Source: Oscillospiraceae bacterium (GTDB taxonomy: Bacteria; Bacillota; Clostridia; Oscillospirales; Ruminococcaceae). From it: DNA of 64,000 nt. The notes under the pieces were generated by a model. It had not been told where the DNA came from, ran no database searches, and saw only the letters and a list, made by a program, of their open reading frames with translations. Both the position numbers and the translations under genes were made by a program. Where the stretch lies: NCBI GenBank assembly GCA_017427265.1, contig JAFRTG010000027.1, forward strand, positions 62,001 to 126,000, in the 5' to 3' direction. This document shows, piece after piece, positions 1-18,035 of the stretch; the stretch's first letter is position 1; the number at the start of each line of letters is the position of its first letter.

Positions 1-1
1 C

Positions 2-3188: not shown

Positions 3189-3197
3189 GCGGTTTTG
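3168..3197 (+). terminator. Intrinsic terminator after the toxin cassette
   Basis: AAACCGCC (3168-3175) pairs with GGCGGTTT (3188-3195), followed by further T. The stem overlaps the stop codon of the 66-aa gene. Confidence 0.7.
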
Positions 3198-3200
3198 TTA

Positions 3201-3273: not shown

Positions 3274-3328
3274 AAGGCTGTCACGCATCAGGCGGCTATA
3301 ACGTACTGCGGACCACGGCAGCCTTTTA
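3273..3328 (+). terminator. Long-loop hairpin with T tail behind the tRNA-like element
   Basis: AAAGGCTG (3273-3280) pairs with CAGCCTTT (3319-3326) across a ~38-base loop and is followed by T. It may stop transcription or protect the 3' end of the tRNA-like RNA. Confidence 0.4.
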
Positions 3329-3394
3329 ACGATTATAACCCTCCCAGAAATGAGCGGGTTTTCTCATACCCAAAAACCGAAAGGAGTTTATCAC

Positions 3395-3652: not shown

Positions 3653-3667
3653 AAAGGAGGAAAGAGC

Positions 3668-3844
3668 ATGGAAAACGCAACCAGACTTGAAATCACCTTC
3701 AAGAGCGGCGACACGATCACCTACCGCGAAGGCGAATGGGATGACTACGGCTATGACGGCAAGGCGATCAGCGTGAAGCTGAAAGGCGCGTGGATCGGCA
3801 TCTACAATTTCGACCATGTGTTCAGCGTCGAGCTGAAACCGTAA
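3668..3844 (+). CDS. Small beta-rich phage protein, function unknown
   Basis: 58-aa protein beginning MENATRLEITFKSG. ATG 3668 follows AAAAGGAGGAAAG at good spacing, 15 bases after the preceding gene. The alternating hydrophobic pattern suggests a small beta-barrel. No family is recognised. A strong terminator follows at once. Confidence 0.7.
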   Translation: MENATRLEITFKSGDTITYREGEWDDYGYDGKAISVKLKGAWIGIYNFDHVFSVELKP

Positions 3845-3855
3845 CAGAATACACC

Positions 3856-3883
3856 AAAGCACTCGGATTCCGGGTGCTTTTTT
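3856..3883 (+). terminator. Intrinsic terminator
   Basis: AAAGCAC...CGG (3856-3866) pairs with CCG...GTGCTTT (up to 3880), followed by TTTTTT. A clear rho-independent terminator just ahead of the HNH gene. Confidence 0.8.
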
Positions 3884-3904
3884 CATGCCCGAAAGGAGAA
3901 CACC

Positions 3905-4258
3905 ATGCCCAGAGACAGACCCAAAGCAAACACCCGCCCCGATCACAACGGCCAGCAGCGGGCACAGTTCGAGTCGAACAAGAAGAAAATCTATGCGACG
4001 CAGACAGTCTGCGGCATTTGCGGCAAGGAAGTCAACTTCCGGCTGAAATGGCCGCATCCGATGTCTGCATGCATTGACCATATCATTCCGGTTGCCAAAG
4101 GCGGGCACCCTTCTGACATCTCCAACATGCAGCTCGCACACATGTCCTGCAACCGGCAGAAATCCGATAAACTGACAGCGACACGGGAAGTTTCGACCGG
4201 TGTTGAGCTGGTTTCAAACCGTGCGCTGCCACTCGCATACGACTGGAAGTCGGTATAA
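3905..4258 (+). CDS. HNH endonuclease
   Basis: 117-aa HNH nuclease. It has the zinc-binding pair CGIC near residue 37, then IDHIIPVAKGG with the catalytic His, and SNMQLAHMSCNRQK with the second Cys and the final part of the beta-beta-alpha-metal fold. HNH proteins beside the large terminase are needed for cos-end cutting in several long-tailed phages (known for HK97-type systems). Its place 16 bases before the terminase fits that role here. It starts at ATG 3905 behind GAAAGGAG. Confidence 0.9.
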   Translation: MPRDRPKANTRPDHNGQQRAQFESNKKKIYATQTVCGICGKEVNFRLKWPHPMSACIDHIIPVAKGGHPSDISNMQLAHMSCNRQKSDKLTATREVSTGVELVSNRALPLAYDWKSV

Positions 4259-4274
4259 GAAAGGAGCTTTTTGC

Positions 4275-5696
4275 ATGGACGAAGTTCGTCTGGGCAAACA
4301 AACTCCTACCATCTGCATCCGGCAGCCGTATTCCGAATCTATCGGAACGGAAGCCGTTGACCTATACAATCGCTCAGACCGCACCGCACAGGACTGGCAG
4401 GCGCTCATGGTTGAAGATATCATGGCCGTTGATGACGACGGGCTGTGGATCCACATGAAATGCGGCTGGTCCATTCCGCGACGGAATGGCAAATCTGAAA
4501 TACTTATCATGCGCGTGTTGTGGGATCTGCTCCATGAACGACGATGCCTTTACACCGCGCACCGCGAATCGACCTCTGCAAGTACGTGGGAAAAAGTCTC
4601 GAAGCTGCTCAAGAAGATCGGTTACAAAGAGGATGAGGATTTCAAATCATACAAGTCAGCCGGCCGCCTTAGCATTGAATGGCTGAAAGACGGTTCGGAA
4701 GCTGTTGCCAACTTCCGCACCAGAAGCGGAAAAGGCGGTCTTGGCGAAGGCTATGACACGCTGATCATCGACGAAGCGCAGGAATACACTTCCGATCAGG
4801 AATCTGCGCTGAAATATGTCGTCACTGACTCTCCAAACCCGCAGACGCTCATGTGCGGCACACCGCCGACAGCAGTCAGCTCCGGCGATGTGTTCCTGAG
4901 ATTCCGGAAATCCGTGCTGACGGCAGGACGTGAAAGCTCATTCTGGGCAGAATGGTCCGTGCCTGATCTGACTGATGCGCACGATCCGGAGCTCTGGTAC
5001 GAGACAAATCCCTCGCTTGGCACGATCCTGACGGAGCGCAAGATCCGCGACGAGCTCGGTGATGACCAGGTCGATGACAATATCCAGCGTCTGGGCCTTT
5101 GGCTCAAATACTCACAGAAATCCGCGATCACGCAGAAAGACTGGGAACATTGCGCACTGCACACGCCGCCGGAACTCGGAGATACACCGCGCCTTTTCTT
5201 CGGCGTGAAGTATGCAAAGCAATCCGGCAATGTATCTCTCGCAGTCGCAGTCAAAACAGATGACGATCAGATTTTCCTGGAAGCGATCGACTGCCGCCCT
5301 GTCCGTGACGGCAATGAATGGATCATTGCATACTTGCGGAATCCGCATGCGGTGACCGCTGTCATTGACGGTGCAGGCAATCAGAGCATTCTTGAATCTG
5401 ACATGAATGATGCGGAAACGGAATGCACAGCACTGCTGCCGCGTGTGCAGCAGATCCCGGAAGCCAACGCACTCTTTGAGAAGCAGCTTTTTGCCGGGAA
5501 GCTGTGTCACATGAATCAGCCGGCACTGCGGCAAGCTGCGGTGAACTGTGAGCACAGAGCCATCGGTTCAAACGGCGGCTTCGGGTATACGTCCGTTCTG
5601 AAAGGTGCGGACATCTCACTGCTCGAAGCTGCTGCGCTGGCAGTGTGGCAGTGTGCAAACGACAGGGAAGAACCTGAGTACACTGTCGAATACTAA
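4275..5696 (+). CDS. terL: Terminase large subunit
   Basis: 473-aa DNA packaging motor and nuclease. Near the N-terminus GWSIPRRNGKSE is the Walker A-like motif of this terminase group, and DTLIIDEAQEY (around residue 165) is Walker B with the catalytic Glu. The C-terminal half, starting near FFGVKYAKQSGNVSLAVAV, is in the place of the RNase H-like nuclease. The start is ATG 4275 with AAGGAG eight bases upstream; an upstream in-frame ATG at 4200 lies within the HNH gene and is rejected. Unusually it comes after portal and MuF. No small terminase is recognised in the window. Confidence 0.93.
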   Translation: MDEVRLGKQTPTICIRQPYSESIGTEAVDLYNRSDRTAQDWQALMVEDIMAVDDDGLWIHMKCGWSIPRRNGKSEILIMRVLWDLLHERRCLYTAHRESTSASTWEKVSKLLKKIGYKEDEDFKSYKSAGRLSIEWLKDGSEAVANFRTRSGKGGLGEGYDTLIIDEAQEYTSDQESALKYVVTDSPNPQTLMCGTPPTAVSSGDVFLRFRKSVLTAGRESSFWAEWSVPDLTDAHDPELWYETNPSLGTILTERKIRDELGDDQVDDNIQRLGLWLKYSQKSAITQKDWEHCALHTPPELGDTPRLFFGVKYAKQSGNVSLAVAVKTDDDQIFLEAIDCRPVRDGNEWIIAYLRNPHAVTAVIDGAGNQSILESDMNDAETECTALLPRVQQIPEANALFEKQLFAGKLCHMNQPALRQAAVNCEHRAIGSNGGFGYTSVLKGADISLLEAAALAVWQCANDREEPEYTVEY

Positions 5697-5726
5697 CGTA
5701 ACTACACGGAAAGATAGGAGTTTATT

Positions 5727-6197
5727 ATGTCTGAAGAATTCAAGGCTATCGAAACACAGGAAGCGCTCGACGCTATCATCAAAAACCGTCTGGAGTGCAA
5801 CACTAAGAGCGTGACCGACAGCGTGACCGCTGAGGTCGCAAAGAAATATGAGGGCTGGATCTCGCCGGATGACGCAAAGAAGTCCGCTGATCAGATCGCA
5901 GCACTCACCGAAAAGCTGAAGGCAAGCGAAACACAGGTCGTTGACCTGACCGCGAAGATCAGTGCAAACGAGATCAGCTCGGCAAAACTGAAAATCGCAC
6001 TGGAAACCGGTCTCCCTTCCGCTTTGGCTGAACGCCTTACCGGCAGCACAGAGGAAGAACTGCGCAAGGATGCGGAACTGCTCGCGAAATTCGCAGCACC
6101 GCAGCATCAGCAGCACCGTTTCTCTTCTGAGCGCACGGAAGGCCTTTCCGGCGTAGAGCAGGCGTTCTACGCAAAGAACCCCGAACTGAAAAAGTGA
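5727..6197 (+). CDS. Capsid scaffold protein
   Basis: 156-aa acidic, strongly helical protein with a coiled-coil-prone centre (residues ~45-90) and a C-terminus rich in small and charged residues. Position just before the capsid gene, length and composition match the DUF4355/gp20-type scaffold proteins of Firmicutes phages, which help shell assembly and then leave or are cleaved. Identity rests on position and composition, not on a diagnostic motif. ATG 5727 follows GATAGGAG. Confidence 0.78.
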   Translation: MSEEFKAIETQEALDAIIKNRLECNTKSVTDSVTAEVAKKYEGWISPDDAKKSADQIAALTEKLKASETQVVDLTAKISANEISSAKLKIALETGLPSALAERLTGSTEEELRKDAELLAKFAAPQHQQHRFSSERTEGLSGVEQAFYAKNPELKK

Positions 6198-6212
6198 AAG
6201 GAGCTATGAAGT

Positions 6213-7307
6213 ATGGCACATACCGCACAGGATCGTTATTCCGATCTCGTCCTCGCAAAGCTGCGTGCTGAGCTCGTACTCGCTGACGGCTTTGTCTTCA
6301 ACAATGACTATGAGGGCGACCCGAAGGCCGGCGCCGTCAAGGTTCCGACCCGTGACACTGAAGTCACGGTGAGCAGCTACGACAAGGCGAACGGTATCTC
6401 TCCGACCGAAGGCAGCACTACCTACACCACACTGGTGATCGACAAGGACAAGGCTGTCAATGAAATCATCGACGGTTATGACGCGGCATCCGTTCCGGAT
6501 AACCTCGTTGCAGACCGCCTCGATTCCGCAGGCTATTCCCTCGCACGTCAGCTCGACACCGACGGTGCGACTGCACTGCTTGGCGGCGCAACCGTCATGA
6601 ATGTTGCGAGCCTGACGAATGCCAACATTTACAGCAACATTGTGGACATCCGTACCGCAATGAGCAAGGCGAATGTTCCGGACGATGGCAAGCGTTATCT
6701 GCTGGTCACGCCGGACACCTTCGCGCTGATCCTGAAGTCGCCGGAGTTCATCTCCGCTTCCGATCTCGGCGATGCTGTTAAGCAGCAGGGCATTCTCGGC
6801 AAGATTGCCGGTTTCCTGGTCAAGGAGTGGAACGATACCACTGCTAACCTTGCCATGATCGCGGGCCATCCGCGCTATGCGACCCGTGTGCATGAGTGGA
6901 GTGTTCCGGTTCATGTACAGGATCTCGCAGAGTCCGGCAAGTACATCGGCGCATGCGCTGTGCAGGGTCGCCGTGTCTACGGTCACGGTGTTCTCCGTGC
7001 AACTGCGATCCGCGCCGTATACGCACCTGGCAGTCTGACCGTTACGCTCGCTGCGTCCGATGAGGGTAAGACGATCGCAACCGTTACCGCAGGCAACACC
7101 GGCACGACCTACGCATACAAGAAGAACCCTGCAAGCCGTGCAACGTTCGATGAGACCTCCACGGCGTATGGCGGCACATCCCTGACCTCCGGTACGACCA
7201 AGATTGCGGTTTCTGAGGGTGACATTCTGGAGATTGTCAACCTCAGCTCCAGCAAGGTCAAGGCGGTCGCGTATGTGACTGTTACAGCCGCAGATATCGG
7301 TACCTGA
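6213..7307 (+). CDS. Major capsid protein with C-terminal Ig-like domain
   Basis: 364-aa coat protein. Residues 1 to ~270 have the make-up of an HK97-fold capsid protein of the N4 gp56/P22-like group, with a long early loop rich in charged and Thr/Ser residues and a late block RRVYGHGVLRATAIRAVYAPG. Residues ~275-364 form a separate Thr/Ser/Gly-rich beta domain like the immunoglobulin-like domains often displayed on capsids. A related domain ends the tail tube protein. ATG 6213 has AAAGGAG 10 bases upstream; ATG 6206 is out of frame. Confidence 0.88.
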   Translation: MAHTAQDRYSDLVLAKLRAELVLADGFVFNNDYEGDPKAGAVKVPTRDTEVTVSSYDKANGISPTEGSTTYTTLVIDKDKAVNEIIDGYDAASVPDNLVADRLDSAGYSLARQLDTDGATALLGGATVMNVASLTNANIYSNIVDIRTAMSKANVPDDGKRYLLVTPDTFALILKSPEFISASDLGDAVKQQGILGKIAGFLVKEWNDTTANLAMIAGHPRYATRVHEWSVPVHVQDLAESGKYIGACAVQGRRVYGHGVLRATAIRAVYAPGSLTVTLAASDEGKTIATVTAGNTGTTYAYKKNPASRATFDETSTAYGGTSLTSGTTKIAVSEGDILEIVNLSSSKVKAVAYVTVTAADIGT

Positions 7308-7309
7308 TC

Positions 7310-7726
7310 ATGAGCGGCGCCGTGTACGCACAGGTGAGTGATATCACGGCGATCGGGCGCACGCTCTCGGCAGAGCAGGAGCAGGCGGCGGGAGTTCTGC
7401 TCACGCAGGCTTCCGCCATGCTTCGGCTCGAAGCAAACAGCTACGACAAAGACATTGATGCCATGATCAGAGACCAGAAGACCGGCGAGGATTTTGCGCT
7501 CGCCGTCAAAATGGTAGTGGTGCAGGCAGTCTGTCGTGCGCTGGATGCAGCCGATCAGGGTGCTGCCGTACAGTCGGCCAGTGAATCACTTGGACCGTAT
7601 CAGTATAATTTTACCTACTTAAACGCCGGGCAGCTCCTTTATTACAAGAAATCCGAAATGCAGCAGCTCGGTATCGCCAGGCAGACAGTCGGATGGGCTG
7701 ACCTCTATGGGGTGATGCCTGAATGA
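7310..7726 (+). CDS. Head-tail connector (Gp15/Gp19-like)
   Basis: 138-aa protein directly after the capsid gene, resembling the phage Gp19/Gp15/Gp42 family of head-completion proteins: helical N-terminus with TLSAEQEQAAGVLLTQAS, a central helix AVKMVVVQAVCRAL, and a C-terminal SLGPYQYNFTYLN block. It would bind the portal ring as the first adaptor. It overlaps the next gene by four bases. Confidence 0.8.
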   Translation: MSGAVYAQVSDITAIGRTLSAEQEQAAGVLLTQASAMLRLEANSYDKDIDAMIRDQKTGEDFALAVKMVVVQAVCRALDAADQGAAVQSASESLGPYQYNFTYLNAGQLLYYKKSEMQQLGIARQTVGWADLYGVMPE

Positions 7727-8097
7727 TGTCTTTTACTATCACTGATAACTCCGATGCTGTGATGCGTGCCTTGCGCGAGCAGTGCATGGAAGGTTTGCAG
7801 GAGATCGGAGAAGAAGCCGTGAAACAGGCTCGGAAAACGGTTCAGTCGAAACACCTTGTTGATACCGGTGATCTGCGCGATTCAATCCGGTATTCGCTTG
7901 GTCACGACGGAGTATACGTCGGAACCGACAACGACCACGCTGCGTTTCATGAGCTCGGAACCGGTCACTATACCGTACCGCACGCAAGTGAAAAATACGG
8001 CGTAAAGCCGCTGCACTTCATCCGAAATGCCGCTCGCGGCCACCGGAAAAAGTATACCGCCATTATGAAAAAAGCCATGGAAGGTGACGGAAGATGA
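7723..8097 (+). CDS. HK97 gp10-like tail/connector protein
   Basis: 124-aa protein of the HK97 gp10 type. Typical features are EEAVKQARKTVQSKHLVDTG followed by DLRDSI, the segment YVGTDNDHAAFHELGTG, and a basic C-terminus after PLHFIRNAA. The family acts in joining head and tail. It overlaps both neighbours by four bases, so the connector genes are translationally coupled. Confidence 0.85.
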   Translation: MMSFTITDNSDAVMRALREQCMEGLQEIGEEAVKQARKTVQSKHLVDTGDLRDSIRYSLGHDGVYVGTDNDHAAFHELGTGHYTVPHASEKYGVKPLHFIRNAARGHRKKYTAIMKKAMEGDGR

Positions 8098-8507
8098 GTC
8101 TGCTTGATCTGAATTTTGAGCCGTTCAATATCCTGATTGCTGCGCAAACAGACGACAATCAGGGCGGACAGCGTAATACATGGACGGTCGGAGAAGGATT
8201 CTCAGGCGTGGCTGTTTCTGCTCTTTCAGCGCATGCAAACGCAAAGGACCAGACCGCGAAGCACGCTGGAGCACCGGCTGCTGATCCTGAGTATACGCTC
8301 CTGACCAAGCGTGCCACACTTCTGCCGTTCCATGCAGTTGTACGCCGCGCCGGTGACGGGATGATCTTCCGGATCACCAGTGATGCCAAGGACGCCAAAA
8401 CGCCGAAGGGATCCCTTCTTGACCTGCGTATGCATGCAGCTGAGAAATGGCGGCTTCCTGACGGCAGCAGCTTGGCAGAAACGGAGGAAGACAATGACGA
8501 AAGCTGA
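8094..8507 (+). CDS. Putative head-closure / minor capsid protein
   Basis: 137-aa protein in the place of head-closure or tail-terminator-type adaptors. The mixed beta pattern and length fit but no diagnostic motif is seen. The 3' end overlaps the next gene (start 8494) by 14 bases. Confidence 0.65.
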   Translation: MSLLDLNFEPFNILIAAQTDDNQGGQRNTWTVGEGFSGVAVSALSAHANAKDQTAKHAGAPAADPEYTLLTKRATLLPFHAVVRRAGDGMIFRITSDAKDAKTPKGSLLDLRMHAAEKWRLPDGSSLAETEEDNDES

Positions 8508-8880
8508 ATGCTTGCACGCCTTCTTTTCGAGCTTCGGTCTGCGGGCGTATGAGGAAAGCAGCGTCCCGGCGTGGCTCGATGCAGTGCAAACTGTGGAGAA
8601 CGCCCCGCCGTATCTCACGTATGAGCTGGCGACGGATGAGTTCAGAGGCGAGCCTGTGCAGATTGCGGTGAACCTCTGGGACAGATCCGGATCATGGCAA
8701 ATGCTGAACGAACTCACAGAAACTATTTCCGCTTCCATCGGCAGATTCAAGCGGCTGATCTGTGATGAAGGCGTCATTTGCGTGACAAAAGGCACCCCGT
8801 TTGCGCAGAATGCTCCCGCCGAAGCTGATAACGACAGGCGGAAGCTGCTGCACATTGATCTGACATTTATCACGAATTAA
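8494..8880 (+). CDS. Putative tail-completion (tail terminator) protein
   Basis: 128-aa protein just before the tail tube gene, the usual place of the tail terminator. It has an alpha/beta make-up typical of that fold, with APPYLTYEL near residue 37 and a final hydrophobic strand LLHIDLTFITN. The start is ATG 8494, behind ACGGAGGAAG. A longer frame from 8380 would overlap the previous gene deeply and lacks a ribosome site. Confidence 0.68.
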   Translation: MTKAECLHAFFSSFGLRAYEESSVPAWLDAVQTVENAPPYLTYELATDEFRGEPVQIAVNLWDRSGSWQMLNELTETISASIGRFKRLICDEGVICVTKGTPFAQNAPAEADNDRRKLLHIDLTFITN

Positions 8881-8893
8881 GGAGGATAAAGCA

Positions 8894-9754
8894 ATGGGAA
8901 TTGATCTCACAAAGCTGGAAAAGATCACACCCGAGCAGGCCGGCAGCGTCCAGTTTGACAGCGGTCTGCTTGTGAAAAACTTTAACATCGAGGATTTCCG
9001 TCAGTCCCTGCTTGACGGTCAGGTCGGCGTTGTCACGAAAGACAGCTTCGGCGTGAATGTCAACCGCGAAACCATCAACATCCTGAGTGACCTGAACAAT
9101 GTCCATTTCGATTATATGGAGGGCCTTGTCACGACGAAGGTCACAACTCAGATCACGTTTACGCTCGCAAGCATGAGCATCACTGATCTGGCAATGGCGC
9201 TCGGCTCCGCAACGATCGACGGTGACAAGATCACTATCAAGTACGAAATTGCAGCAGCCGATTTCCAGAACCTCGCTCTGATCCTGCCGCTTGCAGACGG
9301 TGGCTATGTGATCGCACTGATTCCGAAGGGCTACAGCACCGGCGGTCTGAGCATCTCCACAAGCAAGGCGGCGGTCGGCGGGCTGTCGTGCACGGTCACT
9401 GGCTACAAATCGCTTGCTGACAACACGATCGAGCCGATCGAACTGTACCGCATTGCAAATCCGGATGCAAGTCTCGGTTCGATCACGGTTGCGTCCGCAG
9501 CGGGTACGACATCCGGAACGACCAAGTTGACAATCACCAACTACACAAAGCCTGCCGGCGCGACCTATGTCTACAAGACAGCATCCGGAACCGCTCCTTC
9601 CGTCACGTATGGTCAGATGCCTGATTACACATGGACGGAGTGGGACGGCACTTCCGACATTACTGCGGAAACCGGCAAGAAGATCACTGTTGCGGCTGTC
9701 GGGCAGAACGGTGCTCTGGCATCCGGCAATGCGACTGTAACTGCGCATTCATAA
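8894..9754 (+). CDS. Major tail (tube) protein with C-terminal Ig-like domain
   Basis: 286-aa tail tube protein. Residues 1 to ~195 form the tube domain, starting MGIDLTKLEKITPEQAGSVQ. Residues ~195-286, after NPDASLGSI, are a Thr/Gly/Ser-rich beta domain similar in style to the one on the capsid protein (both have SGTTK and a GTTYAYK/GATYVYK-like strand). Such domains decorate tail tubes in many siphoviruses and may hold the phage to carbohydrate or mucus. ATG 8894 follows AAGGAGGATAAAG. Confidence 0.85.
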   Translation: MGIDLTKLEKITPEQAGSVQFDSGLLVKNFNIEDFRQSLLDGQVGVVTKDSFGVNVNRETINILSDLNNVHFDYMEGLVTTKVTTQITFTLASMSITDLAMALGSATIDGDKITIKYEIAAADFQNLALILPLADGGYVIALIPKGYSTGGLSISTSKAAVGGLSCTVTGYKSLADNTIEPIELYRIANPDASLGSITVASAAGTTSGTTKLTITNYTKPAGATYVYKTASGTAPSVTYGQMPDYTWTEWDGTSDITAETGKKITVAAVGQNGALASGNATVTAHS

Positions 9755-9766
9755 GGAGGCATCACG

Positions 9767-10153
9767 ATGAAGACACTTGCGAACTGCACACCGAAGGAGT
9801 TTGCTGTGCAGACAGTAAAGATTGCCGAAATCGTCCGTCGGTATGTTGACGGCGTTCGGGCCATTCGCGCAAAGATGCCGAAACTCCCGAAGGGTGCGTC
9901 TGCTGAGGATATTCAGAAGGCCGGCATCGAAAACTTTTTCGACATCCTGCAATGGTGCATGGAAACGAATGTGGACGGCACTATGGAGCTGTGCGGTGCG
10001 GTTTGTTTCATGAGCGGTGAGAAATTTGCCGCTCTGGATCCGGCTGACGGTGAGGACGGTGTCACCGCTGTTCTGGATGTGCTGAGTTCTGAGAGGTGCC
10101 TGCATTTTTTCGATGCGCTGCTTCGGGCGCAGGGATTTATCAAGAGACTGTGA
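9767..10153 (+). CDS. Tail assembly chaperone, short form (gpG-like)
   Basis: 128-aa protein between tail tube and tape measure genes, the fixed place of tail assembly chaperones. The frame carries the slippery heptamer TTTTTTC in the correct phase at 10105-10111, so a fraction of ribosomes should shift -1 and make a longer product. The short form ends in TGA at 10151-10153. ATG 9767 follows AAGGAGG. Confidence 0.82.
   Translation: MKTLANCTPKEFAVQTVKIAEIVRRYVDGVRAIRAKMPKLPKGASAEDIQKAGIENFFDILQWCMETNVDGTMELCGAVCFMSGEKFAALDPADGEDGVTAVLDVLSSERCLHFFDALLRAQGFIKRL
10105..10111 (+). promoter_or_regulatory. Programmed -1 frameshift site TTTTTTC
   Basis: In the chaperone frame the codons read CAT TTT TTC, so the heptamer is T TTT TTC, which fits X XXY YYZ. 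The -1 frame then stays open to 10437. This matches the G/GT frameshift known in lambda-like tails. Confidence 0.75.
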
Positions 10154-10437
10154 TCGGCGCAGACCTCGCAAAGTTGGAATTGATCGGCATCGACTACCTG
10201 TACATGCTGTACGATTCCAGGCTGCGCGAGGTCTGCTTTCGCTCGTATGTCACAGATGCGCTGGGTTTCCTCGCAGGAATACAGGAACGCTGGGCTGATA
10301 AAGCATATAATCTTCTGCCTGTTCCGTTAAATGTTCAGGAGCCACCGGATGATATTGAAACACGTTCAACATCTGAAATCGCAGCTTCGATCATTGACGG
10401 TCTGGGTGCAATTCTGGAAAAGAGTGACAACGAATGA
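10105..10437 (+). CDS. Tail assembly chaperone, frameshift extension (gpT-like)
   Basis: The -1 frame read after the slippery site adds about 110 residues, beginning FFRCAASGAGIYQETVIG, for a fusion of about 223 aa starting at 9767. An ATG at 10096 opens this frame but lacks a ribosome site, so independent translation is unlikely. The gene ends overlapping the tape measure start by four bases (ATGA). In lambda the T extension binds the tape measure; the same is expected here. Confidence 0.72.
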   Translation, partial: FFRCAASGAGIYQETVIGADLAKLELIGIDYLYMLYDSRLREVCFRSYVTDALGFLAGIQERWADKAYNLLPVPLNVQEPPDDIETRSTSEIAASIIDGLGAILEKSDNE

Positions 10438-12674
10438 ATGTATTTAGTCTTTTCGCAAAAATCGGTCTTGATACCAGGGAATATGAAGCCAGTCTGAAGG
10501 GCGCAAAAAGCAAATTTTCCGGATTCGCAGACGGCCTGAAAAGTGCAGCCGGCAAAGTAGGAGATGTGCTTGCAGGCATCGGAAAGGCAGCTGCCGCAGG
10601 TGTTGGCGCTGCGAGTACGGCGCTCACGGCGCTGACGAAAAAGAGCCTTGATGCAGTTGCTGACTATGAGCAGCTTGTCGGCGGTGTTGATAAGATTTTC
10701 GGGGAATCATCGAAGAAGGTTCAGGAATATGCAAATCAGGCTTATTCTGAAGCCGGCTTGTCTGCCAATCAGTATATGGAAACGGTCACAAGCTTTTCTG
10801 CTTCTCTGCTGCAATCCCTTGGAAATGATACGGACGCAGCAGCTGATGCCGCGAATCGTGCGATTATTGACATGGCTGATAATGTCAACACATATGGCAG
10901 CAGCATGGAATCCGTGCAGAATGCCTACCAAGGGTTCGCAAAAGCAAACTACACAATGCTTGACAACCTGAAACTCGGCTATGGTGGTACGCAGGAAGAG
11001 ATGGCTCGCCTGATCAAGGATGCCGCCCAGATGAATGAGGAGATGGCCGAGCTTGGTATAACGGTTGATGCTGATTCCATGAGCTTCGGGAATGTCGTCA
11101 ATGCGATCAGTGTCATGCAGAAGCACATGAACATTGCCGGCACAACTCACAATGAAGCAGCAAAGACAATATCCGGTTCAATCGCATCTATGAAGGCTGC
11201 ATGGCAAAACTTTTTGACTGGTACAGGGAGCCCGGCGCAGTTCACTAAAATTCTGAAAGATGTTGTGACAAATATCAGGACAAACCTAAATGAAATCCTT
11301 CCGCGATTGACCGACGGTCTAACCGCGCTGGCTGATCAGATCGCGCCGGAAATCCCGCCGATAATCGAGCAGACACTTCCGTCCTTTATTACTGGTGCGA
11401 GTACGCTTGTTACAGGGCTTGCGAAACGTCTCCCTGATCTGCTTTCTGCAACTCTTCCAGCGCTGTCTGAGGGCGTTGTAAGTGTATCGACAGCGCTTGT
11501 CAGTATTCTGCCGGACCTTGTTACATCTCTTTCGCAGTCCATCCCGATCATCGTCCGTACAATATGGAGCAAGAAGGATGAACTGCTGGAAGCTGGAAAG
11601 AGGCTTATTTCCGCTGTGTTGCCGACAGATATAAGTAAACTTCCCCACTTCATAACAAGTGCAGCATCAGTTGCAACAGAATTCGCAGCTGCAGTGACTG
11701 CTCCACAAAACCTGAACAAGCTGACGGATAAAGCATTTGATATTATTGGTGCACTTATATCCGGTTTGACTTCATCGGATACACTCAATGCGTTTTTCGA
11801 TGAAGAAACAGGAGTAGGACCGGTCATTAAAAATCTTGTCGATGCGCTTGTGCATTTTGTGTATAAATTGGAGGATGCTGCTGACGATATCATTAAGAAT
11901 ATCGGTAATTATCTTAAAGACGAGGAAAACCGTGCTAGGCTTTGGGAAACTGCAAAACAGATTCTCATAAAACTTGGCAGTGGCCTTATTGGGAGCATAG
12001 AACATCTTGCTCCGTTTATCGTAGATCTTGCAGAAGCATGGGCCGAAATGTTCATCGGAGACATTGACTATGATGGAACAGCATCGCAGATTTTGAGTAA
12101 ACTCGGCCAAGCGTTTGTAAATAATATTAAGAGAGGTCCTTCTCATCTTGGGGAATTCATTTATGATATATCTCATGGGATCGAGGAAGAACGTGAGGCT
12201 GAAAAAGAAGCAGAAAAAGAAGTTGAAAAAGAGAAAGATGTAAAAAACTATCAATCAGGAACAAGAATGCTGCCCGGAAATGTTGCAGAGAGAGTCAGGC
12301 AGATGGAGGCGAGCGGAGCTCCGGCTATCGCTGTTAACGAGTATCTCAAATCCATTGGCATATCAAAATCATTTGCAACGGGATTCTATGCAAACCGTCC
12401 GACTATCCTCAGCGGTGTCCAAGTCGGCGAATCTGGCGCCGAGGCTTTACTTCCGTTAGAATCCAACACAGAATGGATGGACAAGCTCGCGGCTAAGATC
12501 GGCGGAGGCGGCGTTCACATCGAAAACCTGACTGTGGATGTGCATGTAGATGAACTGGCAGACGATTACAGCGTTAAGCAAGCTGTTAATTCAATGATTT
12601 CCGAAATCTCTGAGCAGCTTGCAGAACTTCAGATCCGTGAGAACCGCGGAATCGGATTGCCTTCGATGGCATAA
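10434..12674 (+). CDS. Tape measure protein
   Basis: 746-aa tail length-determining protein. It starts MNVFSLFAKIGLDTREYE, typical of the class, has alternating helical segments, hydrophobic stretches (Ala/Gly-rich, ~residues 45-70, and ~285-400) and a Glu/Lys-rich coiled segment near residue 585-605 (EREAEKEAEKEVEKEK). By the usual rule of about 0.15 nm per residue the tail would be roughly 110 nm. The C-terminal part with ANRPTILSGVQVGESGAEALLPL is common at the end of tape measure proteins. From about 11,300 the DNA is more AT-rich than the preceding genes. Confidence 0.93.
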   Translation: MNVFSLFAKIGLDTREYEASLKGAKSKFSGFADGLKSAAGKVGDVLAGIGKAAAAGVGAASTALTALTKKSLDAVADYEQLVGGVDKIFGESSKKVQEYANQAYSEAGLSANQYMETVTSFSASLLQSLGNDTDAAADAANRAIIDMADNVNTYGSSMESVQNAYQGFAKANYTMLDNLKLGYGGTQEEMARLIKDAAQMNEEMAELGITVDADSMSFGNVVNAISVMQKHMNIAGTTHNEAAKTISGSIASMKAAWQNFLTGTGSPAQFTKILKDVVTNIRTNLNEILPRLTDGLTALADQIAPEIPPIIEQTLPSFITGASTLVTGLAKRLPDLLSATLPALSEGVVSVSTALVSILPDLVTSLSQSIPIIVRTIWSKKDELLEAGKRLISAVLPTDISKLPHFITSAASVATEFAAAVTAPQNLNKLTDKAFDIIGALISGLTSSDTLNAFFDEETGVGPVIKNLVDALVHFVYKLEDAADDIIKNIGNYLKDEENRARLWETAKQILIKLGSGLIGSIEHLAPFIVDLAEAWAEMFIGDIDYDGTASQILSKLGQAFVNNIKRGPSHLGEFIYDISHGIEEEREAEKEAEKEVEKEKDVKNYQSGTRMLPGNVAERVRQMEASGAPAIAVNEYLKSIGISKSFATGFYANRPTILSGVQVGESGAEALLPLESNTEWMDKLAAKIGGGGVHIENLTVDVHVDELADDYSVKQAVNSMISEISEQLAELQIRENRGIGLPSMA

Positions 12675-12691
12675 CAGGGGAGCGTGATATT

Positions 12692-13417
12692 ATGAGCGGC
12701 AGCATTCAGTCTCCGGATTATTTCAGCATCAACGGCGTTCTTTCAAGCGCCGTTGATCTGTATTGTGATACTCCGCCCATCCCTCCGATGGCGAAAAAGC
12801 GTTTTACCGTGTTTCAGTTCGGAACGGACGAAGACGGCGTGTTTTCAGACGATTCATTTGAAAATGTTCCTTATACGTTGAGAGCGTATAAGTTCGGTAA
12901 TGTCTACGATGTGAGCGATATTTATGCATTCATGCAAAACGCGCAGCGGCTTGAAATCTCGCGCGATGAAGATTATTTCTACAAGATCAGAACCGTTGAC
13001 AGCATTACCCCTGAAATCAGGTACGACGGAGCGAGAGCGGATTTCCGGATCAGGTTAACGCTTGCTCCGTTCAGGTACCATAAAAGTAATGATGAGATTG
13101 CACTGCCCCAGGGCGGCATAATCGTAAACCCCGGTACAAGGTACAGCAAACCGATTATACGGTTGCAGAAAACCGGATCTGATCAGGCCACCGTCACGAC
13201 AAACGGCCAGCAGCTGAAGATCTTTGGCGCCGTATCCGGCGCAATCACAATCGACAGCGAAAGAATGATTGTTTACAAGACTCACAACGGCGTAAATACT
13301 GCGATCACGCAATACACTGACGGCCCGCTCCCGATGCTTGCGACTGGGAATAATCAGATCACAGTAAGCAGCAACATTTCGAGCGTCGGCATCGTGGGGA
13401 ATTGGAGGAATTACTAA
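12692..13417 (+). CDS. Distal tail (Dit-like) protein
   Basis: 241-aa protein just after the tape measure, the usual place of Dit, which forms the ring joining tail tube and baseplate. Typical pattern: SINGVLSSAVDLYCDTPP at the N-terminus, then RFTV-type strand (KKRFTVFQFG), and a C-terminal galectin-like part after residue ~140 with NPGTRYSKPIIRL. Assignment is by position and strand pattern. Confidence 0.78.
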   Translation: MSGSIQSPDYFSINGVLSSAVDLYCDTPPIPPMAKKRFTVFQFGTDEDGVFSDDSFENVPYTLRAYKFGNVYDVSDIYAFMQNAQRLEISRDEDYFYKIRTVDSITPEIRYDGARADFRIRLTLAPFRYHKSNDEIALPQGGIIVNPGTRYSKPIIRLQKTGSDQATVTTNGQQLKIFGAVSGAITIDSERMIVYKTHNGVNTAITQYTDGPLPMLATGNNQITVSSNISSVGIVGNWRNY

Positions 13418-13418
13418 G

Positions 13419-14234
13419 ATGGCAGCTGTAACAGTTTCCTCGTGGCCTGAGTTTTTACAAGCAATTCAGATTTCCGGCGATGATGTCCATTGCCCAGAAA
13501 ACGCCGTCTGGGATATGAACGAGATTGCTCCGGATGGTTTCATCGGCACTATCAGATTTGATTGTGCAAATGTATATGGGCATAATTGCACAATCAAAAA
13601 TCTGAAATATGACGGAAATATCAATTTCCACAGTGGATTTGGCATAATGTCGGATCTGCATTGGGAAAATATCATTGCCAATTCAGGAAATCAGCAGACA
13701 TTTTTTAATCGCGCAAACAGCGATGTATCATCTCCGACTGGATTGTCGCAAATGGTTTTGTGTAGGATTTCTGGGTATTTTACCTTTAACGGCAGTAGAT
13801 ATCCGTGCGATCCGATAGGCGGATTTGTTTTGTATCGCTGCGGAATCAACATTGAATCGCCAGCTGGGACGTTTAATATGCCTGCGAAAATGCAGTATAC
13901 AAACTTTATAGCACAACTTCCAAACGCATCTACCATACATGCATATGCTGGGCAGGGGCGACCCGGATTCGGTCATTATTTTAGCAATGTCATAACTGTA
14001 GCGCCGAATTGCGTAAACGACTATTCGACAGCATATGCAGACGGGTGTGTTTTTCGTGGAAGGAAAGAAAGGCTTGGTGGCTTTGGTGCTGCTTGCGGAG
14101 GAACGTATATGAGCTTGTATTGTACAACTGATATGGACGCAATCACGAATCCAAACGGAGTTGTCGGCGTGACAGAGACACAGCTAAAGGATGCAGCATA
14201 CTTGCAGTCGATCGGATTCCCGATTGGCGTGTAA
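13419..14234 (+). CDS. Beta-helix-like baseplate protein, possible receptor-binding protein
   Basis: 271-aa protein inserted between Dit-like and tail-endopeptidase-like genes. The N-terminus TVSSWPEFLQAIQ and short repeated strands (IRFDCANVYGHNCTIKNL and similar) suggest a right-handed parallel beta-helix, as in surface-binding or polysaccharide-active phage proteins. No catalytic motif is visible. It is more AT-rich than neighbours, a hint of recent exchange, as is common for host-range genes. ATG 13419 has TTGGAGGAA upstream. Confidence 0.55.
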   Translation: MAAVTVSSWPEFLQAIQISGDDVHCPENAVWDMNEIAPDGFIGTIRFDCANVYGHNCTIKNLKYDGNINFHSGFGIMSDLHWENIIANSGNQQTFFNRANSDVSSPTGLSQMVLCRISGYFTFNGSRYPCDPIGGFVLYRCGINIESPAGTFNMPAKMQYTNFIAQLPNASTIHAYAGQGRPGFGHYFSNVITVAPNCVNDYSTAYADGCVFRGRKERLGGFGAACGGTYMSLYCTTDMDAITNPNGVVGVTETQLKDAAYLQSIGFPIGV

Positions 14235-14246
14235 GGAGGTGGTCGT

Positions 14247-15623
14247 GTGGCATGGATCGTGCCGGAAGGCGGAACTCTTACGCAAGACCTTGCATGGCCG
14301 CCGTATGAAGCGCCGCTCAAGAACGAAGTGCCGTTTGGTTGCTGGACTATAAACGGCCTCGCAAATGCAGGCTATCCATACTGTGAGCTTATGCCTGCAA
14401 TCCCTAAGCTGCGTCTCAGTATTGTACGTCAAAATCAGTACATTAGCGTCTATGATACAGAAACTTCGAGGGAGGGATTCAACTGTAACGGCCTGGCGAT
14501 TCTCGCGCCGACGTCGGGCAGGGTGAAAGAAGCGGAAAACAGTGAGTACAACGTAACACTCGTGCATCCGATGGATGCGGACGGGAAATACGAGTTTCTG
14601 CAGGAATGGAACTATCTGAAGATCTTAGGACAGATCTTTACGATTCGCAAGCTGGACGCGGACTATGATGCAAGAAAGGTCTCCGTATATGCCGAACATA
14701 TATCATACCAGCTCGCAGATGCATGGATCTTCCCGCACGACGGGTCCAAGATCGAAGGCGACCGTCCGGCGGAAGTGCTGCAGGATATTATGACAAAAGC
14801 AACATACCTTGCAGCGCCCGGCCATATCATATATCCGTTCGAATATTACTCCGATATCGAAACGCTCTCACCGCCGTTCTCGAAGGAAGTCAGCGGTGAT
14901 GGCTTGACGCCGCTCGAAGCGATTATCGGATCCGGCGGCTTATGTGCTGCATGCAGCGGACTCTTGCGAAGAGATAATTTCTATTTATCTATCAATAATC
15001 CGATGGAGGACAGCAACCAGAATGCGTTTAACCTCAGAGTGGGCAACAACCTGCACGGCATAAAGAGGATAATCGACACAACTACCATGTGTACACACTT
15101 TACCGCTTACGACAATTTTGGGAATGGTATTAGTGTGTCGTATGCATCCCCTTTGACAAGGCAGTTTCCGCACAATATCGTGCGCAGCAAGCGGTTTACA
15201 TTTGAACAGCCTGACTGGAATGCCTTGGTGCGTGAGTGCTTCGCGTATTTCGGCGCGTGCTGTCAGCCAATCGTAAGCTATACGTTCGACATCGCTGACG
15301 GCAAAGGCAATCCGACATTTGACGACATCGACGAGCTGTATCGTTATCGTGTCGGAGACAGCGGAACGATCTATGACGAACGCATCGGCGGATCCTTTAC
15401 GCTGCGAATAACAGAAACTGAGACAGATGGAATTACGGGCAGGACAATCAGGTTCACCGTCGGCAATCGGAGGAGCTTTACACGTCCGTCAACTGCTCCG
15501 GTACAGATTGTTGGCAATACAACTGTAGACAGTGCGCTGCTCTGGATCCGGGACAAGAACGGTGTTGGCCTGATTGACCGGAACGGAAAATACTTATATC
15601 AGGAGATGAGTGTAAATGGTTGA
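14247..15623 (+). CDS. Tail-associated (prophage endopeptidase tail) protein
   Basis: 458-aa baseplate protein with the plan of tail-associated lysin/gp44-like proteins: an N-terminal region around NSEYNVTLVHPMDADGKYEF, followed by FLQEWNYLKILGQIFTIRK, then repeated beta domains, and a C-terminal block IRFTVGNRRSFTRP. It forms the baseplate hub and may help cell-wall entry. The start is GTG 14247, seven bases after AAGGAGG. The end overlaps the next gene by eight bases. Confidence 0.75.
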   Translation: MAWIVPEGGTLTQDLAWPPYEAPLKNEVPFGCWTINGLANAGYPYCELMPAIPKLRLSIVRQNQYISVYDTETSREGFNCNGLAILAPTSGRVKEAENSEYNVTLVHPMDADGKYEFLQEWNYLKILGQIFTIRKLDADYDARKVSVYAEHISYQLADAWIFPHDGSKIEGDRPAEVLQDIMTKATYLAAPGHIIYPFEYYSDIETLSPPFSKEVSGDGLTPLEAIIGSGGLCAACSGLLRRDNFYLSINNPMEDSNQNAFNLRVGNNLHGIKRIIDTTTMCTHFTAYDNFGNGISVSYASPLTRQFPHNIVRSKRFTFEQPDWNALVRECFAYFGACCQPIVSYTFDIADGKGNPTFDDIDELYRYRVGDSGTIYDERIGGSFTLRITETETDGITGRTIRFTVGNRRSFTRPSTAPVQIVGNTTVDSALLWIRDKNGVGLIDRNGKYLYQEMSVNG

Positions 15624-16230
15624 TGAAAGCCAGATGGGATTTATGACCCACAGCTATCAGGAAATTGATGCTGCGGTGGATCAAGCAGAAACAAACCGGC
15701 AGGCAATCGCGTCCATGCAGACTTCCAAGGCGGATACAAGTGCATTGACAGCAGAGCAAACAACCAGAGCAACGGCTGACAACAAGCTGATCGCAGCGCT
15801 CACGCAGCTGATCGACGTGGACGGGGCGGTGCAAAAAAACTTGATCAGCGTCAACAGCGGTACAACCCCGTCCGCGAACGGTTATTTCTGCGAAAATTTG
15901 CCGATCTCCATGCCGGCAGGATCGTATCATGTCAGCATGGAGCGAGCGGATGAGGGACAGCTTACCTTTGTCATCAAGGCGGCTGACAACACCGAGCTTG
16001 CACGATGGAGTCGCGCAAGCGGTGTGACATCTGTTTCGGAAGATATTACGATCAGCGCGGACGGTGCAAAAATCAGCGTGTACGTCGGAAACAATGTCAC
16101 TGTAAGTGATGCAATGGTCTGCGCAAAAGCATACTACGATATTTCCCCGGCATTTGTCCCATACGCTAGCAACAGATCAGTAACTACAGCAGAAACACAA
16201 CAAGAAGAATCGCAGGAGGAGCAGAGATGA
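15616..16230 (+). CDS. Putative short tail fibre / upper baseplate protein
   Basis: 204-aa protein. The N-terminal ~70 residues are helical with a coiled-coil pattern (QEIDAAVDQAETNRQAIASM), as in tail-fibre stalks that trimerise. The rest looks like a beta-sandwich (SMPAGSYHVSMERADEGQLT) that could bind sugar. It overlaps the holin start by four bases. Function is inferred from place and layout. Confidence 0.6.
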   Translation: MVDESQMGFMTHSYQEIDAAVDQAETNRQAIASMQTSKADTSALTAEQTTRATADNKLIAALTQLIDVDGAVQKNLISVNSGTTPSANGYFCENLPISMPAGSYHVSMERADEGQLTFVIKAADNTELARWSRASGVTSVSEDITISADGAKISVYVGNNVTVSDAMVCAKAYYDISPAFVPYASNRSVTTAETQQEESQEEQR

Positions 16231-16631
16231 AGAGTGTAATTAAGATTTTGACTGCCGTCGCAGGCGGGACAGCTGGTTTCCTTTTCGGGGAGACAGACGG
16301 GCTGCTGATCGCACTGATATCGTTCGTGTGCCTTGACTACATTTCGGGGGTCTTGGTCGGGGCCTCGAAACGAAAGCTCAGCAGTCAAATCGGATACAAA
16401 GGCCTGTGTAAAAAGGCTATGATTCTGGTTATCGTTGCGATGGCCCACATCATAGATTCACAGGTCCTCGGCGGCAGTAAGTCAGTCTTTCGATCGGCTG
16501 TATGCTGCATGTTTATATCTAACGAGGGTATGAGCATCATCGAAAATGCCGGTAAGCTCGGTTTGCCGCTGCCGAAGAAATTAAAGAGTTTTCTGGAGCA
16601 ACTGAGGGATAAATCGGATAAGGAGGAATAA
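16227..16631 (+). CDS. Phage holin (phage_holin_4 / toxin-secretion type)
   Basis: 134-aa membrane protein with three to four hydrophobic segments (residues ~5-25, ~30-50, ~65-85) and the family pattern ALISFVCLDYISGVLVG followed by KLSSQIGYKGLCKK. Such holins open the cytoplasmic membrane so that the endolysin reaches peptidoglycan. The C-terminus is charged. It is followed two bases later by the endolysin. Confidence 0.9.
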   Translation: MKSVIKILTAVAGGTAGFLFGETDGLLIALISFVCLDYISGVLVGASKRKLSSQIGYKGLCKKAMILVIVAMAHIIDSQVLGGSKSVFRSAVCCMFISNEGMSIIENAGKLGLPLPKKLKSFLEQLRDKSDKEE

Positions 16632-16633
16632 AG

Positions 16634-17338
16634 ATGTTCATTCAGAGGGAAAAACCGAGTAAAGGTGATGTGTGGTTCACAGGCACAGAGAGCGGCGGGA
16701 TCTCGACATGCATCAAAGGCCAGCCGACAGATCCGAACTGCGACCGTCTCGCAAACTGCGTATCCATCGTCGGTGCCTACAACAAAGCAGCCTGCTCGAA
16801 CCTGACCAAGCCGAAATGGGGGCCGATTCTGTGGCCTCCTAATGCAGGTGGCATTCTGACCTACGCACAGGAGCTCGGCCTACCGACAAGCACCCAGCCC
16901 GCTCCGGGCGCTCTGATCGTCTGGAAAAAGGGCGAGCTGACGCTGAAGAACAAGAACGGTCATGTCGCATTCGTGACCGACGTTGAAGCTGATGGTACGA
17001 TCCACACCGCAGAGAGCGAGTGGCAGGGGAGAGCGTGGGTGAACAGGACGTACAAGCCGCCTTACGCTTACGCAGCCGGGTACACGTTTATCGGCTTTGT
17101 TCTTCAGCCCGGCACAACTCCGGCGCAGGTGATCAAGTACATCCGCGAGGGGGACAAGGGCGCAGCGGTCGAGCTGATGCAGAGTCGTCTTGCGGGCAAG
17201 GGGTTCATGCGTAAGACTGAGGTGGACGGCGACTTCGGTAGGATAACCAAGGGCGCCGTGTGTTGCTTCCAGCTTGAAAACGGTCTCGTCGTGGACGGCG
17301 TATGCGGACCGCTGACCCAGGCCAAACTTTACGGATAA
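16634..17338 (+). CDS. Endolysin: CHAP amidase/endopeptidase plus peptidoglycan-binding domain
   Basis: 234-aa lysis enzyme. An N-terminal CHAP-like domain has candidate catalytic Cys42 (RLANCVSIVGAYN) and His110 (NKNGHVAFVTD), about 70 residues apart as usual. Residues ~168-234 form a peptidoglycan-binding 1 domain (REGDKGAAVELMQ, then DGDFGRITKGAV, DGVCGPLT). It would cut host peptidoglycan at the end of the lytic cycle. ATG 16634 follows AAGGAGGAATAAAG. It is the last prophage gene. Confidence 0.92.
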   Translation: MFIQREKPSKGDVWFTGTESGGISTCIKGQPTDPNCDRLANCVSIVGAYNKAACSNLTKPKWGPILWPPNAGGILTYAQELGLPTSTQPAPGALIVWKKGELTLKNKNGHVAFVTDVEADGTIHTAESEWQGRAWVNRTYKPPYAYAAGYTFIGFVLQPGTTPAQVIKYIREGDKGAAVELMQSRLAGKGFMRKTEVDGDFGRITKGAVCCFQLENGLVVDGVCGPLTQAKLYG

Positions 17339-17346
17339 TCAGAAAA

Positions 17347-17380
17347 AACCGGCAGGGGATTACTCCTCTGCCGGTTTATA
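17347..17380. terminator. Strong terminator at the prophage right end
   Basis: ACCGGCAGGGGA pairs with TCCTCTGCCGGT around TTAC. A-rich sequence on the left and T-rich on the right make it able to work in both directions. It ends the lysis operon and meets the truncated cotJC frame. Confidence 0.88.
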
Positions 17381-17489
17381 TCTTTTTGGAGTTTAGGCCG
17401 CCGAGCTGGGACATCACCATTTTGGCGAGCCGGGCGTTCGGCCGTGCGATTTTGACCGGATACTGCAGTGCTTTTTCGTATTGGAACAT
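17376..17489 (-). pseudogene. cotJC: cotJC, 5' fragment cut off by the prophage
   Basis: The frame starts at ATG (17487-17489) behind GGAGG and reads MFQYEKALQYPVKIARP, then NARLAKMVMSQLGG, which matches the N-terminus of CotJC, the manganese-catalase-like spore-coat protein (normally ~190 aa). After the GG at about 17,397-17,402 similarity stops; six foreign codons (LNSKKI) and a stop at 17376-17378 follow inside the prophage terminator. The remaining ~155 codons should lie beyond the other end of the prophage, left of the window. Excision could rebuild the gene. Confidence 0.85.
17380..17405. other. Probable prophage attachment junction (att) in cotJC
   Basis: Junction placed where the CotJC reading frame departs from family sequence, just after codons for SQLGG. 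The exact core cannot be set without the other junction. No tRNA gene is involved, which would fit a serine recombinase, but the integrase is not in view. Confidence 0.6.
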
Positions 17490-17777
17490 TCAGTTCGCCT
17501 CCTTTTCCCAGGGCCACGGCGTATTGCTCCATGAGACCCAGCCGTCCTCTTCGTCAATGTGCATCATTGTGAGGGCGCCGAATCTGCGGGAATAGGCCTC
17601 GCCGGACTGCGCATAGGCCTCCTTGTGCTTCAGATATTCCGCAAGAGCCTTTTCGTCCGTTGGGTGTGTGTCGAGGTACAGCGCAAGGTCACGCATCATA
17701 AAGCAGTGCGCCTGAACCTTTCGCTGCAGCTCAGCCTTTCCCATTGCTGCCAAAGACTGCTGCCGCATCTCGCTCAT
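17490..17777 (-). CDS. cotJB: Spore coat protein CotJB
   Basis: 95-aa protein with the CotJB pattern: helical start, MRDLALYLDTHPTDEKALAEY in the middle and a C-terminal block WVSWSNTPWPWEKEAN (shown here in short: TPWPWE is diagnostic). It is part of the inner spore coat with CotJA and CotJC. The start ATG at 17775-17777 has GGAGG seven bases upstream; longer frames run back through cotJA. It overlaps cotJA by 47 bases, and cotJC begins directly after its stop, so the three form one operon. Confidence 0.93.
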   Translation of the reverse strand: MSEMRQQSLAAMGKAELQRKVQAHCFMMRDLALYLDTHPTDEKALAEYLKHKEAYAQSGEAYSRRFGALTMMHIDEEDGWVSWSNTPWPWEKEAN

Positions 17778-17964
17778 TGCTGCGTCCTCCTTTCTCCATG
17801 AAAAACGGCTTATCAAGCGACGGGAATGCCGTGCCTGCATCAAGGGCTTCGTCCGCCGGATAGGTTGTTTCCCAGCACTGATACGGCACATAGGCCATTG
17901 CAAGCGTCAGTTTCGGCGGGAATGTGCCTTCAGGCACGACCGGAAGTGTTTGATCCTGCAGCAT
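17731..17964 (-). CDS. cotJA: Spore coat-associated protein CotJA
   Basis: 77-aa protein with the CotJA core LAMAYVPYQCWETTYPADEAL followed by GTAFPSLDKPF (family-typical: AYVPYQ...Y...EAL..GT.FPEL..PF). Start chosen at ATG 17962-17964, seven bases from AAAGGAG; an ATG two codons upstream touches the ribosome site. First gene of the cotJ operon, made in the mother cell during sporulation in species studied. Confidence 0.9.
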   Translation of the reverse strand: MLQDQTLPVVPEGTFPPKLTLAMAYVPYQCWETTYPADEALDAGTAFPSLDKPFFMEKGGRSNERDAAAVFGSNGKG

Positions 17965-18010
17965 GTGCATACTCCTTTCTATTGGATTGTGCGGGCTTGC
18001 CGCACAGTGC

Positions 18011-18035
18011 ATTGTATGCGGCAGCGCCATAATTC
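18011..18035 (-). promoter_or_regulatory. Possible SigE-type promoter of the cotJ operon
   Basis: On the - strand CATACAAT (18011-18018) matches the SigE -10 box, and GAATT lies 12 bases upstream (18031-18035) as a weak -35 box. cotJ is SigE-controlled in Bacillus subtilis. The -35 fit and spacing are imperfect. Confidence 0.4.

Follow-up and report, generated by a model that had tools for sequence, protein, structure and literature searches.

A stretch of 64,000 nucleotides from an Oscillospiraceae bacterium (GCA_017427265.1, contig JAFRTG010000027.1, positions 62,001 to 126,000 of the forward strand; hereafter the window, whose position 1 is C25:62001) contains the 5' part of the spore-coat gene cotJC beside the right half of a prophage whose integrase is a large serine recombinase (LSR). 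cotJC is confirmed to be a gene split by this insert, with both parts on the same contig and strand, and the whole feature comprises C25:43953-79404 together with the flanking cotJC parts. It is probable, on the comparisons with related loci given below, that the prophage is excised in the sporulating mother cell by the integrase and a candidate recombination directionality factor (RDF), rebuilding cotJC, and that the spore line keeps the prophage.

cotJC is split by a prophage

Exactly two matches to the cotJC family PF05067 were found in the genome at E <= 0.001, both on the minus strand. Family positions 1-31 match C25:79397-79489, which is open, and positions 22-198 match C25:43493-43981, an open and stop-free 3' part that lies to the left of the window. 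The frame at 17376-17489 translates as MFQYEKALQYPVKIARPNARLAKMVMSQLGG, 31 codons that match the family, followed by the six phage codons LNSKKI and a stop. The core TCGGCGG is shared by both junctions at a core-to-core distance of 35,445 bp (C25:43953 to 79398), and the flanks joined at this core give an uninterrupted in-frame CotJC of 215 codons. An uninterrupted cotJC, 84% identical, is present in a genome of the same genus (G108, locus L022). The locus contains the following features.

17376..17489, minus strand: cotJC 5' part, 31 cotJC codons plus 6 phage codons and a stop (PF05067 positions 1-31; translation)
17398..17404, minus strand: right-hand copy of the shared core TCGGCGG, whose left-hand counterpart lies outside the window at C25:43953-43959 (L003:3953-3959)
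17376..17389, minus strand: phage arm of the right attachment (att) site, CCAAAAAGATATAA, an inverted repeat of TTATATCTATTTGG at the left end
17340..17375, minus strand: terminator-like hairpin with T run at the prophage end (from sequence)
17490..17777, minus strand: cotJB, intact (PF12652, E 7.5e-23)
17731..17964, minus strand: cotJA, intact (PF11007, E 2.3e-18)
18011..18018, minus strand: mother-cell-type -10 element CATACAAT, upstream of cotJA (from sequence)

The first-pass annotation, made from the window alone, had described intact cotJA and cotJB on the minus strand, with which the Pfam matches and translations agree, and a cotJC frame of about 31 codons ending at the terminator of the prophage, which is borne out by the PF05067 match to positions 1-31, the stop and the hairpin with its T run behind it. 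It had also suggested looking leftward for the 3' part of cotJC and a recombinase, at both junctions for a short core and in relatives for an uninterrupted cotJC; each of these was found, the recombinase being the LSR at the left end, and the joined frame is in register. Its suggestion that the prophage may be a skin-like element, with excision tied to sporulation, is supported by these findings and by the comparisons given below. Its coordinates took in the 5' half of the feature and stopped short of the remainder. As in the sporulation gene-intervening elements of the skin, SPbeta, vfbin, gin and yin type, a coding region is interrupted, precise excision at the short core of both junctions would restore the frame and a recombinase is encoded within the insert. 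In 13 of 16 loci inspected cotJA is preceded by a CATA element, and in the free phage contig L156 the same GC-rich hairpin stands after the phage attachment site (attP).

That the two parts of cotJC were brought into this arrangement by a chimeric assembly is hardly credible. The genome is a draft of 49 contigs, and odd arrangements occur in three other genomes (G100, G132 and G145); both junctions, however, lie within one 342-kb contig, and the same junction architecture recurs in dozens of independent assemblies.

The prophage looks like a complete temperate siphovirus, since its PHROG and Pfam matches run from integrase to endolysin and include the repressor, antirepressor, primase, helicase, portal, terminase, scaffold, major head protein, head-tail adaptor, tape measure, distal tail protein and holin. 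Integrase, repressor, head, tail and lysis genes are all represented, and attP is found in free relatives. Its main features are listed below.

C25:43983-45404, minus strand: LSR, left half, outside the window (phrog_95 integrase, E 1.3e-108)
C25:46843-47580, minus strand: repressor, left half, outside the window (Pfam/PHROG)
C25:47975-48724, plus strand: antirepressor, left half, outside the window (Pfam/PHROG)
C25:48782-49024, plus strand: candidate RDF, left half, outside the window (position, size, persistence)
1..17397, unstranded: right half of the prophage, with structural and lysis genes (Pfam, PHROG)
324..1550, plus strand: portal protein (phrog_104, E 4.5e-102)
4275..5696, plus strand: terminase large subunit (phrog_9, E 1.5e-65)
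6213..7307, plus strand: major head protein (phrog_267, E 4.8e-37)
10434..12674, plus strand: tape measure protein (phrog_6900, E 6.6e-68)
16227..16631, plus strand: holin (phrog_199, E 7.4e-26)
16634..17338, plus strand: endolysin with CHAP and peptidoglycan-binding domains, the last phage gene before the junction (PF05257, E 6e-11; PF01471, E 5e-12)

The LSR is 473 amino acids long and possesses Resolvase, Recombinase and zinc-ribbon domains. It shares a gene cluster with the repressor, an exonuclease and an M78 peptidase, and 23 bp separate its stop from the left core. The SPbeta integrase YokA is among its nearest sequenced structures, with a weak match (E 8e-8). Spo0A, SpoIIID and sigma-E/K-like factors are encoded in the host genome. 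Downstream of the cotJC 3' part, the end of an open reading frame (ORF) at L003:1842-3218 resembles, by eye, a dockerin-type repeat.

Integrase specificity and constraint at site A

The junctions of some 30 loci align at cotJC codons 30-31 (GGN GGN), here called site A; the phage arms flanking them form inverted repeats, as in ATATCTTTTTG / CAAAAAGATAT. Among viral contigs that carry relatives of the LSR, the closest 80 of 246 found were considered. In 37 of these 80, the LSR is immediately followed by both attP arms around a GGNGG or CCNCC core (control, 7 of 400 random stretches), and the direction of the core relative to the LSR varies among the 37 (18 GGNGG, 19 CCNCC); 15 of the 80 contigs break off no more than 60 bp from the LSR, and a cotJC piece stands beside the LSR in 11. 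In genomes, the 80 closest loci among the matches listed were compared: in 72 the LSR end lies at most 57 bp from a cotJC piece, in three the piece is farther off and in five there is none. When the class was searched with a divergent LSR as query, 15 loci other than ours were found, and in every one of them a cotJC piece lies no more than 224 bp away. In a family sample of 297 genomes, 201 of which have a PF05067 match, the LSR occurs in 28; site-A pieces are found in 24 of these 28, with G256 as a 25th, the rest being G027, G097 and G164. Eight LSR loci of this sample were read, two of them (L237, L243) without a cotJC piece and one (L242) with a piece 0.9 kb away. Judged from the sequences, integrases of this family are specific for cotJC codons 30-31, both of which encode glycine.

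In our prophage the LSR adjoins the cotJC 3' part, and in relatives 84-96% identical (L076-L078, L156) it adjoins the 5' part. The core-side spacer of our prophage, GGCGGCCTAAACTCC, equals the LSR-side spacer of these relatives, but it is the other arm that follows it, so that the prophage looks as if it had been inverted between its arm repeats. In G132 and G145, where the cotJC parts are oddly arranged, recombination would yield two chromosome circles, one of them with a rebuilt cotJC.

Among 65 site-A 3' parts, 34 reach the natural end of the gene, 28 continue as far as another recurrent site (19 at B, six at C and three at D, sites described below), two end with their contigs and one is decayed. 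These figures bear on the view that the insertion is fixed and cotJC is a dead, stable pseudogene, which the first-pass annotation had named as the alternative. The decayed copy, in L149, has stops and a frame change and fits such a view, but the 3' part of our own locus is open and decay is confined to 1 of the 65, which makes a dead gene very improbable.

Constraint on the split gene is clearest in L148 and L155, two loci from metagenome-assembled genomes of the rabbit gut. Over 141 codons (cotJC codons 34-174) their nonsynonymous divergence (Ka) is 0.003 at a synonymous divergence (Ks) of 1.19, with 99.3% amino-acid identity, and their LSRs differ by a Ks of 1.17 and a Ka of 0.076. As the two Ks values are nearly equal, the LSR and cotJC seem to have diverged in step during a period in which the gene was split at sites A and D. 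Two looser pairs give for cotJC a Ka of 0.041 at a Ks of 1.40 and a Ka of 0.057 at a Ks of 2.88; as their LSRs differ more than the gene does, shared descent of the insert does not follow from them.

A candidate directionality factor and its putative promoter

In SPbeta and in the skin element of C. difficile, the integrase is always on and the directionality factor is under mother-cell control. The small gene C25:48782-49024 may encode such a factor. It belongs to a family of proteins of 60-80 amino acids, common to phages and small elements, that was recovered with a six-sequence profile; phmmer with the single sequence as query retrieved that sequence only. It matches phrog_26314, a function-less entry. 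The structure model consists of a hairpin and a long helix (predicted local distance difference test score, pLDDT, 82.6); it had no match in BFVD at E <= 0.001, and a sequence profile search of PDB gave nothing convincing.

Upstream sequences of 62 non-redundant members of this family were compared with those of 1611 control ORFs from the same loci. In 48 of the 62, and in 179 of the controls, CATA lies 18-40 bp upstream of the start codon (p 1.3e-31); shuffled upstream sequences of the candidates would give 6.5. An ACA(A/G) box 9-17 bp before CATA is present in 26 of the 62 against 28 of the 1611 (p 1.6e-25). In our prophage CATAGACTA lies 29 bp before the start. This promoter would be used by sigma-E or sigma-K, and the ACA(A/G) box resembles SpoIIID sites. 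A strict sigma-K scan of whole elements showed no signal, with two matches in our prophage where 1.8 are expected; the enrichment emerged when the upstream sequences of the RDF family were compared. For the C. difficile skin, the SpoIIID consensus is given as KRTAACARK and transcription of the RDF gene CD1234 is reported to start 14 bp upstream of its start codon (PMC5025042), to which the present spacing may be likened; for sprB of SPbeta a mother-cell promoter is placed directly upstream, with the start site 20 nucleotides before the codon (PMC4191935).

In the mechanism proposed here, the integrase would target cotJC glycine codons 30-31, and integration would divide the gene in frame into parts 35.4 kb apart. 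In the vegetative cell the integrase, lying in the repressor-side gene cluster, would leave the prophage in place. In the sporulating mother cell the sigma-E/K-type promoter directly before C25:48782-49024 would drive the putative RDF, with which the integrase would excise the prophage and rebuild cotJC, and the mother-cell promoter of cotJA and cotJB would serve the rebuilt gene as well. Since the mother cell dies, the spore would keep the prophage. The small gene also stands downstream of the antirepressor among the phage early genes and could therefore serve lytic excision, as sprB does in SPbeta.

Elements much smaller than a phage occupy the same site. Nine of these site-A elements, 3.6-6.2 kb long, were read, and no recognised phage structural genes were found in them. 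LSR and att sites are retained, as is the RDF candidate, whose family is present in eight of the nine. Of ten ORFs scanned from six of these elements, one had no match and nine have host-type Pfam domains, namely those of a DinB-type polymerase, a glycosyltransferase, an epimerase, an LD-carboxypeptidase, a ricin-type lectin, an alpha/beta hydrolase, a peroxiredoxin, TspO and an Amidase_3 protein. The Amidase_3 gene (L038:1931-2674, L039:3066-3812), with a sigma-K-like promoter, is conserved between the small elements of G129 and G011, and its product may be a spore-lysis or cortex enzyme.

The prophage could also be an ordinary one, for which cotJC is a convenient, conserved and dispensable bacterial attachment site; the lysogen would then be without CotJC, excision would be SOS-induced or lytic alone, and the intact look of the split gene would come from recent, reversible integrations. 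Our prophage does look complete, its relatives exist as free phages, and integration sites vary among genomes of one genus, so that integration appears to be frequent; moreover, B. subtilis CotJC-type mutants are described as without apparent defect (PMC12122855). We nevertheless consider this unlikely, as the small elements retain the LSR, att sites and RDF candidate and those scanned carry host-type genes, a mother-cell-type -10 element precedes the RDF candidate, and the split gene has been constrained over a Ks of about 1.2 that it shares with its LSR.

Excision in the mother cell, the reading preferred here, has several observations to contend with. The -35 part of the promoter is weak, AC-N16-18-CATA being found in 13 of the 62 RDF candidates and 28 of the 1611 controls; our own prophage has GTCCAAG in place of the ACA(A/G) box; and CATA is absent from 14 of the 62, including that of a small element, L087. 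The gene is an RDF candidate by position, size, promoter and persistence, with no match among known RDFs, Pfam families or folds. One site-A LSR copy (G027) contains stops, as does the decayed 3' part of L149. The cotJC parts lie 675 kb apart in G132 (C1), in reversed order and 11 kb apart in G145 (C1, L056), and on opposite strands in G100 (C83, L055). Finally, the constraint test draws mainly on one pair, for which separate integrations after the divergence may also account.

Further split sites and known intervening elements

cotJC is split at five fixed sites: Z (near codon 6), A (codons 30-31), B (codons 64-68, the EE-x-x-H stretch), C (codons 134-136) and D (codon 175, after QRFGE). Two LSR families are found at site B and a third at site C, with 61.8% identity in the pair compared. 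The LSR group at site Z is 55% identical in the pair compared and 38-44% identical to two B1 members, and that at site D is 25-53% identical. Among LSR-bearing loci, the LSR lies within 80 bp of the junction in 12 of 13 at site A and 10 of 13 at site B, the site-B exceptions (L037, L040, L041) having it 0.27-1.6 kb away. The site-B element of G194 is 2.0 kb long and contains little besides the LSR and a 68-amino-acid ORF, for which no homology to the other B1 loci was found. A candidate site near PF05067 position 90 (G034, G310, G121) was rejected, being explained by contig ends or by a 42%-identical paralogue.

Several insertions may share one gene. More than one of sites A, B and C is seen in 23 of 124 genomes listed from the two subsets described below. 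In G460 cotJC pieces 1-35, 30-66, 65-133 and 133-176 follow in order over 69 kb of one contig (C1:205516-274898; L290, L291), with A-type, B2-type, B1-type and C-type LSRs each 8-27 bp from their own site; the last piece stops at the D position, and cotJC is thus in four or more pieces. At site B of this genome two elements seem to stand side by side, with a B2-type LSR at one end and a B1-type LSR at the other. Site-Z LSRs (L090, L096, L099, L110 near 5550) abut a cotJC piece that starts near codon 6; the piece beside site A is therefore also without a start, and these genes are split at both Z and A. A promoter scan of 26 site-B/C loci gave four candidate small ORFs, not above the control rate. 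Three of these four, in B1-site elements and with ACA(A/G) and CATA upstream (L045:6722-6982, L049:8023-8211, L051:7500-7688), are loosely alignable and are a possible second RDF family.

The frequency of such splits was estimated in two subsets. The first comprised the 74 genomes of the family sample with the weakest best PF05067 match, read piece by piece, and the second 50 hand-picked genomes without a full-length match from a sample of 297 for the rest of the order, of which 255 have a PF05067 match; counts leave out split copies behind a full-length paralogue, and one-sided cases may be contig ends. In the family subset both sides of a site were found in 51 genomes, one side in 13 and neither in 10, so that 64 of the 74 appear to be split at one of the sites A, B and C. 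In the order subset the corresponding figures are 36, 13 and one; G392, counted among the 36, has a contiguous frameshifted copy and is to be subtracted, leaving 48 of 50 that look split. No report of elements inside cotJC was found in the open-licence literature, subscription papers and preprints lying outside this search. We lean towards the view that, throughout the Clostridia, cotJC is a hub at which DNA is excised during development: each LSR family owns one fixed place in this gene of roughly 200 codons, the elements vary in size from a 2-kb cassette to an entire phage, and several may occupy one gene, so that some mother cells would have to perform several separate excisions for one spore protein.

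In parts and layout the cotJC elements match the design of SPbeta and skin across a whole class of bacteria. SPbeta in spsM of B. subtilis (sprA, sprB; PMC4191935) is likewise an active-looking prophage in a mother-cell gene, with a serine recombinase and a small RDF (a candidate in our case), whose sigma-E/K-type promoter directly before the gene has a good -10 and an imperfect -35 (a motif only in our case), and its RDF gene is also downstream of phage lytic genes. It differs in target gene and host group, its RDF has no detected sequence relation to our candidate, and in the cotJC system several LSR families insert into one gene, at five sites. The skin element in sigK of C. difficile (CD1231, CD1234; PMC5025042) interrupts a regulator and is a remnant, whereas cotJC is a structural catalase gene and its elements range from whole phage to 2 kb. 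The gin element in gerE of Bacillus cereus is non-phage, with a developmentally timed serine recombinase, and is comparable to the small cotJC elements; unlike them it is 28.6 kb long, with three recombinases, a single known host and another gene (PMC5595907). The yin element in yabG of Clostridium botulinum also combines a clostridial coat-related gene, an LSR and a putative RDF with a putative SigK promoter, but it is reported as unique to one strain, whereas the cotJC system is widespread (PMC10747680). In C. difficile, phi027 has a prophage end beside a cotJC-type gene, the CotJC homologue cotG, as here; cotG is described as adjacent to or downstream of attR rather than as a gene that is split and rebuilt, whereas in our case cotJC itself is split (PMC11222575, PMC12122855).

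Known intervening elements are scattered single cases, whereas splits of cotJC are widespread. Annotation pipelines will label such genes as missing or truncated, and the loci are a source of sets of serine recombinases whose att sites are known. Should excision follow the proposed timing, they would offer dozens of natural replicates for phage excision tied to a dying cell, for shrinkage into host-kept cassettes and for the coordination of several excisions. If cotJC is indeed a hub of this kind, it would resemble a gene with introns that are removed at the DNA level.
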